Source of the DNA: Achromobacter deleyi
GTDB taxonomy: Bacteria; Pseudomonadota; Gammaproteobacteria; Burkholderiales; Burkholderiaceae_B
Assembly: GCF_016127315.1 (NCBI RefSeq)
Contig: NZ_CP065997.1
Coordinates: forward strand, 4,712,001-4,776,000
DNA length: 64,000 nt
Reading direction: 5' to 3'
Below the pieces are notes generated by a model. It worked only from the letters and a program-made list of their open reading frames with translations. It was not told the DNA's origin and did no database searches. Below are positions 2,183 through 5,271 of this stretch, piece after piece. Position 1 is the first letter of the stretch. The number at the start of each line of letters is the position of its first letter. The translations under genes were made by a program, and so were the position numbers.

Positions 2183-2698
2183 CTAGACCGGCCGCTCGTA
2201 GCGGCGCGCCTGCACCTCGATGCCGCCGATGTGGTCGGTTTCGGTGCCGGTGTTGCGCCAGCCCTGCCGCTCGTAGAAGTCGATGGCGCGGGTGTTGCCT
2301 TCGAGCGCATACAGATATAGCCGCGATGCGCCGCGGGCGCGGGCCCAGGCCTCGGCGCGCGTCACCATCAGCTTGCCGGCGCCGGTGCCCTGGTAGGGGG
2401 GTAGCACGTGCAGGTTGTCCAGCAGCACTTCGCCGGGGTGGTCGTGTTCCTGCTTGACGCAGACGAAGCCGATCGGCTGGCCGTCCTGTTCGGCGATGAA
2501 CACGGCCTGCGCGTCGGTGTTGGCCTCGCGCATCTGGTCCTGCCAGTGCACCATGCGGTTGTCCGCCAGGCCGGCGTCGAGAAAGCCGTCCGGCAGCAGG
2601 CCGCGGTAAGTGACCGCCCAGCTGGCCGCGTGCATGGCGGCGATGGCGTCGGCGTCGCGGGCGGTGGCCTGGCGCAGGGTGACGGCGGGGCTGGGCAT
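2183..2698 (-). CDS. GNAT-family N-acetyltransferase
   Basis: 171 residues, full length for the GCN5-related N-acetyltransferase fold. The acetyl-CoA pyrophosphate loop is QGTGAG at residues 103-108, preceded by the beta-4 strand LLDNLHVLPPY and followed by a helix. The C-terminal part contains NTRAIDFYERQGW, the usual beta-5/alpha-4 segment. The substrate cannot be predicted. It is transcribed away from the leader and kinase unit; its upstream region (2699-2764) lies back-to-back with the leader promoter. Confidence 0.85.
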   Translation of the reverse strand: MPSPAVTLRQATARDADAIAAMHAASWAVTYRGLLPDGFLDAGLADNRMVHWQDQMREANTDAQAVFIAEQDGQPIGFVCVKQEHDHPGEVLLDNLHVLPPYQGTGAGKLMVTRAEAWARARGASRLYLYALEGNTRAIDFYERQGWRNTGTETDHIGGIEVQARRYERPV

Positions 2699-2764: not shown

Positions 2765-2793
2765 TTGACAGGTTTGGCGGCGTCCAGCATGAT
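2765..2793 (+). promoter_or_regulatory. Sigma70-type promoter of the leader transcript
   Basis: TTGACA at 2765-2770 is a perfect -35 box. After a 17-base spacer comes CATGAT at 2788-2793, 4 of 6 matches to TATAAT. Transcription would start about 7 bases later, at or near A2800, which is the first base of the leader ATG. The transcript would therefore be leaderless or nearly so. Confidence 0.6.
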
Positions 2794-2799
2794 CGTGCC

Positions 2800-2862
2800 A
2801 TGAACCGTCCGCACCGCTCGTCCGCCCTGATTATTACCACCGCTGGGACCTCGGTGGGTTAG
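2800..2862 (+). CDS. Putative leader peptide with Ile-Ile-Thr-Thr control codons
   Basis: Twenty codons from ATG 2800 to TAG 2860 encode MNRPHRSSALIITTAGTSVG. Consecutive ATT ATT ACC ACC codons (2830-2841) sit where control codons lie in amino-acid attenuators. There is no Shine-Dalgarno sequence; the predicted transcription start coincides with the ATG, so a leaderless mRNA is implied. The peptide overlaps the first two pairing segments of the attenuator (see 2837-2909). An Ile/Thr-responsive leader would normally precede thr or ilv genes, but here the next gene is a P-loop kinase. Seen: the ORF, the codons and the folds. Inferred: translation and function. Confidence 0.5.
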   Translation: MNRPHRSSALIITTAGTSVG

Positions 2863-2909
2863 CGCGCGTCGGATCATCGCTACATCAACCCGCCAATGGC
2901 GGGTTTTTT
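2837..2909 (+). promoter_or_regulatory. Candidate transcription attenuator (segments 1-4)
   Basis: Four segments can pair in mutually exclusive ways. Segments 1 and 2: CCACCG (2837-2842) with CGGTGG (2852-2857). Segments 2 and 3: GGTGGGTT (2853-2860) with AACCCGCC (2887-2894), 8 bp with one G-U pair, an antiterminator. Segments 3 and 4: AACCCGCC with GGCGGGTT (2898-2905), the terminator. A ribosome paused on the Ile/Thr codons would mask segment 1 and favour 2:3; one that reaches the stop codon at 2860 would mask segment 2 and favour termination. Confidence 0.5.
2887..2909 (+). terminator. Intrinsic terminator downstream of the leader peptide
   Basis: A perfect 8-bp GC-rich stem (2887-2894 with 2898-2905) with a 3-base loop is followed by a run of T to 2909. 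It lies 24 bases after the leader stop codon and 36 bases before the kinase start codon. Confidence 0.85.
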
Positions 2910-2945: not shown

Positions 2946-3458
2946 ATGCAATCGAACGCGTCTTCCGTGTCATCTTCCGCCGAACCCATGCTGCATTTCC
3001 TCTGCGGCAAGATCGGCGCCGGCAAGTCCACCCTGGCGGCGCGACTGGCGTCGCGGCCGCGCACCTTGCTGATCAGCGAGGACGCCTGGCTGGCGGCGTT
3101 GTATCCCGGCGAGATCCGCGAGGTGGCCGACTATGCCCGCTGCGCCGGCCGCCTGCGCCAGGCGATGGCCGGCCACGTGGCCGCGCTGGTCGCGGCCGGA
3201 TTGTCGGTGGTGCTGGATTTCCCGGCCAACACCCGCGCCAGCCGCGCCTGGCTGCGCGAGGTGGCGCAGGCCGCCGGCTGCCGCCACCAGCTGCATTTCC
3301 TCGACCTGCCCGATGATGTCTGCAAGGCGCGGCTGCGCGCGCGCAACGAATCCGGCACGCATCCGTTCACGACCAGCGAGGCGCAGTACGACGCGATCAC
3401 GGCGTATTTCGTGGCGCCGCGGGACGACGAAGGGTTCGAGATCGTGCGGCACGCATAG
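2946..3458 (+). CDS. P-loop AAA-type kinase / ATP-binding protein
   Basis: 170 residues. Walker A is GKIGAGKST at residues 21-29. The rest has the pattern of small nucleotide- or amide-kinase-like P-loop proteins: SEDAWLA after beta-2, VVLDFPANT as a Walker B-like strand, and RLRARNESGTHPF as an arginine-rich lid. The physiological substrate is unknown. The start at 2946 has GAGG 7 bases upstream; ATG 2988, just before MLHFLCGK, is an alternative that would remove a poorly conserved N-terminus. It is the only gene directly downstream of the attenuator, so any regulation by the leader would act on it. Confidence 0.75.
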   Translation: MQSNASSVSSSAEPMLHFLCGKIGAGKSTLAARLASRPRTLLISEDAWLAALYPGEIREVADYARCAGRLRQAMAGHVAALVAAGLSVVLDFPANTRASRAWLREVAQAAGCRHQLHFLDLPDDVCKARLRARNESGTHPFTTSEAQYDAITAYFVAPRDDEGFEIVRHA

Positions 3459-3534: not shown

Positions 3535-5271
3535 ATGTTGCCCCCGCACCGCTACTACTACCTGCACAACTTCCAGCGCGCCCTGGCGTGGGTCGGCGCG
3601 CGCTACGCCGATCTGCTGGATGACCACGAACGCCTTTTCATGGCGGACTTCGCGGCCTTGCCACAGGCCTCGCAGGCGCTGCTGGTGCGCATGCTGATGC
3701 GGCGCGGGCCGTGGTTCCGCGCCAGCCGGCTGGTCTACGAGGAAATCCCGGCCACGGCCGAGGCCGCCGCGCCGCTGCTGGCGCTGGGGTGGCTGGATGC
3801 CGACAGCCCCATGACGCTGGACGAATTGTTCGCGCTGCATACGCGTCCCGAGCTCGACCGGCTGTTCGCCGCCACGCCGGTCAAGGGCGCGGGACGCAAG
3901 GCGGATCTGCTGGAAGCGTTGCGCGCTCGCCATCCGGACGCCCGCGCCTACGCGTGCTGGGTGGCCGGCGGGGCGCACCTGGGCGGCGAGTCCGCGGCGC
4001 GCGGCGACGCCCCGGTCGACCCCGCCTGGCGCGTCGCGGTCACCGACCTGTGCGAGCGCTTGCGCCTGATGTTCTTCGGCAACCTGCACCAGGGCTGGTC
4101 GGAGTTCGTGCTGGCCGACCTGGGCGTGTTCCAGTACGAAACGGTGCCGTTCGAGCCTTCTTCGCGGGCCTTCCAGACGCGGCAAGACGTGGACCGCTAC
4201 CTGGCCCTGCATGCCTGCCGCCAGGCGCTCGATGATGGCCTGGACGTCGATGCGCTGTTGCAGGCGGTGGCCGACTGCGCCAGCGGCAACGCCTGGCTGG
4301 AAAAGCGCCGCGCCAAGGTGCTGCTGCGCCTGGGGCAGGCCTGCGAGCGGGCCCAGGATTGGGAGGCGGCGCAACGGGTGTACACGCTGTGCGCCTATCC
4401 CGGCGCGCGTCATCGCCGCATCCGCGTGTATGAACGCATGGCGCGCTTCGACGAGGCGCTGGCGCTGGCCCTGCAGGCCGAGGCCCGGCCCGAGAGCGAG
4501 GAAGAAACCCAGCGCCTGGCGCGCATGCTGCCGCGCCTGCGCCGCAAGCTGGGGCAGGCCGCGCCGCGCGGCGCGGCCGCGCCGGTGTCCCGGTTCGACC
4601 TGGAACTCGCGCGGCCCGCGCCGCCGATGGCGGTGGAATTCGCCGCGCGCGATCACCTGCACCGCGACGCCGCGCCGGTCCACTACGTCGAGAACACGCT
4701 GATCAATTCATTGTTCGGACTGCTGTGCTGGCCGGCCGTGTTCGCGCCGCTGCCGGGCGCGTTCTTCCATCCGTTCCAGCGCGGGCCGGCCGACCTGGAC
4801 GCGCCCGATTTCCACGCGCGGCGCGAAGCGCTGTTCGCCGCCTGCCTGGCGCAGCTGGACACGGGCGAGTATCGCGCCACGATCCGCCAGCGCTACGCCG
4901 ACAGGCAGGGCGTGCAGTCGCCGTTCGTGTTCTGGGGTGCGCTCGACGAACCGCTGCTCGAGCGGGCGCTGGACCACCTGCCGCCTGCGCACCTGAAGCT
5001 GTTCTTCCTGCGGCTGCTGCGCGACGTCAAGGCCAACCGCTCGGGGCTGCCGGACCTGATCCGCTTTTGCCCGGAGGCGCCCGGCTACGAGCTCATCGAG
5101 ATCAAGGGGCCGGGCGACAAGCTGCAGGACAACCAGATCCGCTGGCTGGCGTATTGCGCCGACCATGGCGTGCCGGTGCGCGTCTGCCATGTCAGCTGGC
5201 GCGAGCCGGCGTCTTCATCGCTGGCGGATGGCTCGTCGCATGGCGCTTGCCCGGACGCGTCCGCGCCATGA
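3535..5271 (+). CDS. FAN1-type structure-specific nuclease with VRR-NUC domain
   Basis: 578 residues, the size of bacterial FAN1 homologues. The C-terminal VRR-NUC domain carries the PD-(D/E)XK motif: GLPD with D507, then ELIEIKGPGD with E522 and K524, and Q532 in the next helix. The N-terminal ~400 residues are helical, with TPR-like repeats in the middle, as in FAN1. FAN1 enzymes cut 5' flaps and branched DNA and act in repair of interstrand crosslinks. The stop overlaps the next start in ATGA (5268-5271), so translation of the helicase is probably coupled to it. The ATG at 3535 has no clear ribosome-binding site and follows an AT-rich stretch (3500-3520) that may hold the promoter. Confidence 0.85.
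   Translation: MLPPHRYYYLHNFQRALAWVGARYADLLDDHERLFMADFAALPQASQALLVRMLMRRGPWFRASRLVYEEIPATAEAAAPLLALGWLDADSPMTLDELFALHTRPELDRLFAATPVKGAGRKADLLEALRARHPDARAYACWVAGGAHLGGESAARGDAPVDPAWRVAVTDLCERLRLMFFGNLHQGWSEFVLADLGVFQYETVPFEPSSRAFQTRQDVDRYLALHACRQALDDGLDVDALLQAVADCASGNAWLEKRRAKVLLRLGQACERAQDWEAAQRVYTLCAYPGARHRRIRVYERMARFDEALALALQAEARPESEEETQRLARMLPRLRRKLGQAAPRGAAAPVSRFDLELARPAPPMAVEFAARDHLHRDAAPVHYVENTLINSLFGLLCWPAVFAPLPGAFFHPFQRGPADLDAPDFHARREALFAACLAQLDTGEYRATIRQRYADRQGVQSPFVFWGALDEPLLERALDHLPPAHLKLFFLRLLRDVKANRSGLPDLIRFCPEAPGYELIEIKGPGDKLQDNQIRWLAYCADHGVPVRVCHVSWREPASSSLADGSSHGACPDASAP

Follow-up and report, generated by a model that had tools for sequence, protein, structure and literature searches.

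Attenuators of the trp, his, thr and ilv type in Gram-negative bacteria combine a leader open reading frame (ORF), control codons, alternative 1:2, 2:3 and 3:4 RNA pairings and a terminator. The leader described here lies in a 64,000-nt stretch of Achromobacter deleyi DNA (contig NZ_CP065997.1), hereafter the window, and shares the ORF, control codons, alternative pairings and terminator with these systems. Unlike the classical attenuators, it has a predicted leaderless start, stands before a kinase gene instead of a biosynthetic operon, and carries two adjacent isoleucine codons, with a third further on in 29 of 47 aligned leaders and lost in the window species. A precedent for a leaderless leader peptide is trpL of Sinorhizobium meliloti, whose leader peptide ORF (14-aa peTrpL) is reported to begin at the RNA 5′ end (PMC7298713). 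The location of the ORF at the 5′ end, reported there and predicted here, is the common feature; trpL differs in its residue, tryptophan, and in its target.

According to our analysis, the window leader very probably attenuates transcription by a ribosome-mediated mechanism, in response to charged tRNA-Ile, and thereby regulates the kinase gene at 2946–3458. Its best reading is that of a leaderless, isoleucine-responsive member of the ilvA-leader (P9) family, neither an Ile/Thr attenuator nor primarily a trans-acting small RNA.

All elements of the leader are on the forward strand. A sigma-70 type promoter occupies positions 2765–2793, with TTGACA at 2765–2770, a 17-nt spacer and CATGAT at 2788–2793; the two hexamers give 10 of 12 consensus matches, and six bases (CGTGCC) separate CATGAT from the ATG at 2800. 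The leader ORF (2800–2862), putatively leaderless, has 20 codons, encodes MNRPHRSSALIITTAGTSVG and ends with the stop codon TAG at 2860–2862. Its codons ATT ATT ACC ACC span 2830–2841, of which the Ile-Ile pair (ATT ATT, codons 11–12, 2830–2835) was assigned as the control site from the conservation of isoleucine in 47 leaders. Segment 1 (2837–2842) pairs with 2852–2857 (1:2; 6 bp, −9.3 kcal/mol). Segment 2 (2852–2860) overlaps the stop codon, and its bases 2853–2860 form the antiterminator with segment 3 (AACCCGCC, 2887–2894; 2:3; 8 bp, −14.0 kcal/mol for the region). Segment 3 is also the partner of segment 4 (2898–2909, GGCGGGTT plus a U-run), and the two make an intrinsic terminator with the hairpin AACCCGCC-AAT-GGCGGGTT (3:4; 2887–2894 with 2898–2905, 8 bp, −13.0 kcal/mol), after which a T run extends to 2909. 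GAGG at 2936–2939 was read by eye as the ribosome-binding site of the kinase. A preliminary description of this DNA had named the TTGACA box with its 17-base spacer and −10 near ATG 2800, the 20-codon ORF with ATT ATT ACC ACC, and four segments able to form the three pairings; the sequence contains the first two as described, folding reproduced the pairings, and they are kept in the 47 alignable leaders.

The layout is that of trp-type attenuators: a leader ORF with tandem control codons, mutually exclusive pairings, a terminator, and suitable codon placement, with the Ile pair upstream of segment 1 and the stop TAG inside segment 2 (judged by the general ribosome footprint given below). Between 2600 and 3000 we found one promoter-like site against a mean of 0.1 in shuffles, and one terminator-like site against 0.5 expected. 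The whole-leader fold was not unusually stable relative to shuffles (z = −0.86), which counts against the attenuator reading, and taken alone the window leader is only a moderately unusual sequence. Consequently, the case rests on comparison. What raises the leader above chance is its P9 match, its presence upstream of the best kinase hit in all 29 kinase-bearing genomes of the genus, and the 47 leaders that keep the pairings and the Ile pair.

The sole Rfam match above cut-off in the window was to RF00624 (P9, ‘Pseudomonas sRNA’) at 2827–2907 on the forward strand, with 48.5 bits against a gathering score of 43. Across the whole genome (6.99 Mb), two P9 matches exceeded the cut-off: the window leader and a leader located directly upstream of ilvA, the biosynthetic threonine deaminase gene identified by NCBIfam, whose product belongs to the isoleucine pathway. 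The latter match is the strongest in the genome (72.8 bits; G000:C1:5180975-5181058, L001 1474-1590). The ilvA leader has TTGACA 36 nt before its ATG and a leaderless-type ORF of 20 codons encoding MTSRAVRISLIITIIPGMVG, compared with MNRPHRSSALIITTAGTSVG in the kinase leader. One further locus, L006, is a reverse-strand echo of L001.

For comparison across genomes, leaders were taken from named kinase loci, the best 80 of 524 confirmed relatives, among which distant relatives are under-sampled. Alignment A2 holds 46 of these leaders plus that of the window (47 in total; 34 of the 80 loci were left out), and its ORF-based selection favours open frames. From this alignment the model R1 was built. 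Computation established the sequence parts, their conservation, the pairings and the leader's association with kinase and ilvA genes. When inspected by eye, weak P9 or R1 matches (L003-L005, L007-L009, L100-L102, L238-L243) yielded no convincing leader, and several are simple terminators. L248 (G906:C13:112436-112551) has a degenerate ilvA-type leader ending in RIALIIRTFPGMVG and a stop, and no gene was identified after it.

Within the genus, a kinase hit was found in 29 of 43 genomes, and in 29/29 the best hit had an R1 match 33–195 nt upstream on the same strand. This count takes the best hit per genome and leaves out a remote additional hit in G009 (32% identity), which has no leader; two of the 29 hits are partial (G009, G023). 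At L067 (G009:C53) a leader is kept beside a kinase gene that is apparently internally deleted. The 14 genomes without the kinase gave no second R1 match below E 1e-4 and a few weaker ones. Among the kinase-less genomes, 13 carried a single strong leader, which precedes ilvA in 10 of the 10 fetched (G026, G030 and G034 were not among these), and G033 (57% complete) carried no strong leader.

In the wider family, 16 further genomes encode a kinase relative, and a leader could be read upstream in seven of them (G045, G078, G079, G103, G106, G107, G182); in G045 it precedes a SnoaL gene, which in turn precedes the kinase. G079 has two partial kinase hits 31 kb apart, one of them with a leader beside it (L095, L096, G079:C10). 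Among the best 80 of 524 named kinase loci, the canonical leader was present at 46, distributed over 16 named genera (Achromobacter, Bordetella, Cupriavidus, Variovorax, Comamonas, Pseudomonas, Delftia, Pseudacidovorax, Xenophilus, Polaromonas, Ralstonia, Burkholderia, Paraburkholderia, Janthinobacterium, Glaciimonas and Stenotrophomonas) and two further lineages, and no leader was seen at 23. The preliminary description had named as contrary evidence related genomes in which the kinase gene persists but both the ORF and the alternative pairings are gone. In the genus the leader accompanies the best kinase hit throughout, but further away such evidence exists in part: no leader stood before the kinase in nine family genomes (seven Alcaligenes, G145 and G150; 330 nt read), and the canonical form is absent from enteric and alphaproteobacterial relatives.

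Several loci left out of A2 carry other arrangements. At L162 the leader stands upstream of a SnoaL gene, which is followed by the kinase. The leader ORFs of L142 and L168 (Chromobacterium) lack Ile-Ile, the leaders of L153 and L164 are degenerate, and L119 has the terminator only. Five alphaproteobacterial loci (L143, L155, L158, L170, L182) display another hairpin design: a short ORF ending RI(T/S/H/I)xPA before its stop lies about 110–150 nt before the kinase, with the stop in a GC-rich hairpin; the long fold that contains it reaches −56 to −79 kcal/mol per 150 nt. These L143-type leaders are possibly translational switches.

The genes around the pair are mostly not common to the leader-bearing genera, so leader and kinase appear to have been kept together while their surroundings changed. 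Conserved neighbours were considered as a clue to function and discarded, as none of the 25 clusters listed spans more than six genus labels, apart from the kinase itself and frames overlapping the kinase or leader. The cluster with six labels is a LysR-like protein (8 of the best 80 of 524 loci), and an ABC-transporter ATPase (9 of the same 80) is common to Variovorax and Bordetella; both assignments are our own reading. In the window, the leader is preceded by a divergent GNAT acetyltransferase gene (2183–2698, reverse strand), and the kinase is followed by a FAN1/VRR-NUC nuclease gene (3535–5271, forward strand). Neither is among the shared neighbour clusters listed.

All three pairings are conserved in the 47 leaders, with 78.5% of cells paired in 1:2, 94.4% in 2:3 and 99.2% in 3:4. 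Cells changed on both sides numbered 24, 3 and 6, respectively, counts reached by none of 500 shuffles that keep relatedness; in 3:4 the double changes involve three pairs. Counting pairs with double changes is less distinctive: 358 of 500 shuffles reach the observed count in 1:2, and 196 of 500 do so in 2:3. Furthermore, 1:2 slid by +3 still pairs at 72.3%, its outermost pair is broken in 32/47 leaders, and one 2:3 pair is broken in 15/47. The 2:3 helix was contained in the minimum-energy fold of segments 2 to 3 in 46/47 leaders (simple shuffles: mean 3.4, maximum 9). In three Janthinobacterium leaders, segments 2, 3 and 4 have changed together with both 2:3 and 3:4 kept, which is the most telling case and probably represents one event. 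The comparison among relatives that the preliminary description had proposed thus yielded conserved Ile codons and some compensatory stem changes, and its trp-type geometry gains support from an ORF and pairings that are kept with the kinase. A good U-run is missing in the Stenotrophomonas and Janthinobacterium leaders. The Stenotrophomonas leaders L152, L169, L176 and L177 retain Ile-Ile and the hairpins without it, and 3:4 may therefore act on translation there.

Three features point indirectly to a leaderless peptide. First, the best −10-like hexamer ends 6–8 nt before the start codon in 27/47 leaders and 17–18 nt before it in 10/47 (gaps of 0–24 scanned). Second, C occupies position −1 in 44/47. 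Third, an SD-like motif occurs in 1/47; the start is ATG in 46/47. On this basis the transcript would start at or next to A2800, as the preliminary description had supposed. The perfect TTGACA box, to which it had drawn attention, is a feature of the genus, where 62 of 63 loci have a TTGAC that starts 35–37 nt ahead of the start codon (34/34 ilvA and 28/29 kinase leaders; the remaining locus, L068, failed the ORF filter). It does not extend to the wider set, in which exact TTGAC within 42 nt of the start was found in 13/47 leaders.

The distances between the control codons and the RNA segments are nearly fixed. The first Ile codon is 10 codons from the stop in 43/47 leaders and 23 nt from the start of segment 2 in 45/47; the distance from the start codon to Ile is 24, 27 or 30 nt, always in frame, as the ORF filter favours. 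A ribosome covers about 15 nt ahead of its P site. With the 23-nt spacing, a ribosome waiting for isoleucine would mask segment 1 and not segment 2, and a stop-bound one would mask segment 2.

We propose the following sequence of events. RNA polymerase would start at or beside ATG 2800, so that the ribosome would initiate on the RNA 5′ end with no need of a Shine-Dalgarno site. Under a shortage of Ile-tRNA, it would stall at codons 11–12, covering segment 1 and leaving segment 2 free; 2:3 would then form and the kinase would be transcribed. When Ile-tRNA is ample, the ribosome would reach the stop inside segment 2, 3:4 would form and transcription would terminate near 2909. If the RNA is not translated, 1:2 would form and 3:4 would terminate transcription as well. 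Once segment 4 is present, the lowest-energy fold of the window leader contains 3:4, and 2:3 must therefore win kinetically. We infer both this precedence and the response to isoleucine.

The choice of isoleucine rests on the behaviour of the codons across the alignment. Ile occupies the first anchor codon in 45/47 leaders of A2 and the second in 46/47. The six bases of the pair lie outside all three helices, and variation affects 13 of 94 third positions against 2 of 188 first and second positions (Fisher’s test, p = 1.9e-5, relatedness uncorrected), as expected under selection on the amino acid. The preliminary description had assigned both Ile and Thr as control residues; the isoleucine half stands, and the threonine half is disfavoured, because the next two codons are variable (R, T, P, H, A, C, N, S, then T, A, P, I, L, S). 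An attenuator sensing both residues, like the thr operon leader, is accordingly improbable, although several observations agree with it: the ATT ATT ACC ACC run of this species, the recurrence of IITT in many Achromobacter kinase leaders, and the presence of Thr in one of the two codons after Ile-Ile in 30/47 leaders. By our own geometry, segment 2 would also stay accessible during a stall at either Thr codon; the argument against Thr is thus one of conservation, not of geometry. Where Thr is absent from these two places, R, P, H, A, C, N, S, I or L stands in its stead, and 11/47 leaders have no Thr from Ile-Ile to the stop. Moreover, the ACC codons lie inside segment 1, where stem pairing alone can conserve them. 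The Rfam matches at the window leader also speak against this reading, with Thr_leader absent up to E 1 and both Trp_leader (23.9 bits vs. 41, E 0.008) and Leu_leader (15.8 bits vs. 50, E 0.78) below cut-off. Threonine control was therefore rejected on conservation, and isoleucine alone is retained as the control residue.

Rfam files P9 as a small RNA gene, whereas the window element reads as a cis attenuator. A free-standing trans-acting small RNA with an incidental ORF would agree with that filing and with the leader’s own promoter and terminator, which give an RNA of about 110 nt. In addition, the attenuated trp leader RNA and peptide of S. meliloti are reported to act in trans (PMC7298713). 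The genomic positions of P9 argue otherwise. Among the best-scoring P9 loci of genus and family (40 fetched, leaving out the window’s own match and the weak matches of its genome), 36 stand before ilvA at 25–74 nt and four before the kinase. A second set comprised 30 of 36 P9 matches from 26 named genomes chosen for carrying the kinase; here eight loci precede ilvA and 22 the kinase. Xenophilus had no P9 match among these 26 genomes, though its leader was read directly. Altogether, 70/70 loci of the two sets precede ilvA or the kinase, a position that suits a cis attenuator better than an sRNA gene. The codon-like variation at Ile-Ile, the fixed Ile-to-stop spacing and the retained antiterminator also argue against a small RNA, which makes a purely trans-acting role very unlikely; besides attenuation, the leader RNA may have a role in trans. 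The same holds for Pseudomonas itself: in six genomes (L187-L191, L193) an ilvA relative follows the best P9 match, and a leaderless-type ORF (SIITAIP..AG before the stop) was read by eye just after a −10-like box. The Rfam ‘sRNA P9’ in Pseudomonas thus looks like an ilvA attenuator.

The least probable alternative is that an ilvA leader copy was displaced, lost its regulation and now gives the kinase no more than a promoter and a constitutive terminator. This would suit the kinship with the ilvA leader of the same genome and the loss of the third Ile codon (present in 29/47 leaders) but not the retention with the kinase in 16 named genera (best 80 of 524) in mostly different neighbourhoods, nor the conservation of three pairings and the Ile pair.

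The gene predicted to be under control of the attenuator encodes a 170-aa P-loop kinase on the forward strand. It belongs to Pfam AAA_33 (PF13671; 110 bits, cut-off 27) and has 4308 relatives at E 0.001 or better, the closest named one being a protein of Achromobacter insuavis (98% identity). The best solved relative by sequence is 2rhm, a ‘putative kinase’ (E 0.0009). In the structure model (pLDDT 90.5), the predicted fold lies near PNKP, PSTK (O-phosphoseryl-tRNA kinase), PFK-2, gluconate kinase and others (Foldseek, VIA). As these are about equally close, the fold does not name the substrate. The only NCBIfam hit, homoserine kinase NF040667 (hom_kin_desulfo), was rejected at 20.7 bits against a cut-off of 197 over only 47 residues, the likeness being weak and confined to the P-loop region. 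Anti-phage defence was likewise rejected, with PADLOC matches only at E 0.008–0.04. We found no independent link of the kinase itself to isoleucine, which counts against an Ile attenuator.

The leader also precedes other genes. In 399 genomes of the order, R1 had 25 matches at E 1e-4, spread over 20 genomes, with targets assigned by tblastn and reading. Five precede the kinase (including the window and G023), three SnoaL plus kinase, one SnoaL alone, four ilvA and five a PhzF-like gene (three in one genome; Pfam was run on two of the five), and seven are weak or without a clear gene. Searching the class with RF00624 revealed SnoaL-like genes in three genomes and, by our own reading, another P-loop gene in one (L186); the family search added two more SnoaL-like genes. 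The targets of the leader family thus comprise at least four gene types: ilvA, the kinase, SnoaL-like and PhzF-like genes. SnoaL/NTF2-like genes follow the leader either without the kinase or in the order leader-SnoaL-kinase (L092, L162, L230, L231, L233, L098, L099, L235, L183-L185). The PhzF-like genes at L232, L234, L236, L246 and L247 are preceded by a variant leader, ..RMI(C/H)(T/S)T..VA(G/E) before the stop, with Met-Ile at the control place; G869 has three copies of it.

The attenuation mechanism is already known. As far as the literature searched shows, the novel points are the assignment to isoleucine, the new view of P9, the putative leaderless start and the kinase as a target; in the open-licence literature we found no description of an ilvA or kinase leader of such kind. 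The original P9 report, said to be that of Livny et al. 2006, may already describe such a leader, as may, reportedly, the work of Vitreschak et al. 2004 on proteobacterial attenuators.

A more speculative reading, which we consider rather unlikely, is that the leader is a portable tRNA-Ile sensor common to ilvA and several small enzymes (the kinase, SnoaL-like and PhzF-like proteins), and that these enzymes answer a loss of charged tRNA-Ile with a non-dietary cause, either an IleRS inhibitor or tRNA-Ile damage. Given a fold near polynucleotide and aminoacyl-tRNA kinases, among others, the kinase would in that case target the inhibitor or the tRNA. If true, this would constitute an undescribed tRNA-Ile stress response. 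The attenuator reading itself has wider consequences. It turns P9, filed as a Pseudomonas sRNA, into a testable family of isoleucine attenuators with leaderless peptides and, if right, would mean that leaderless control peptides occur well outside the rhizobial trp leader. For a widespread kinase it offers a regulatory hint: its phosphorylated substrate should matter when tRNA-Ile is uncharged.
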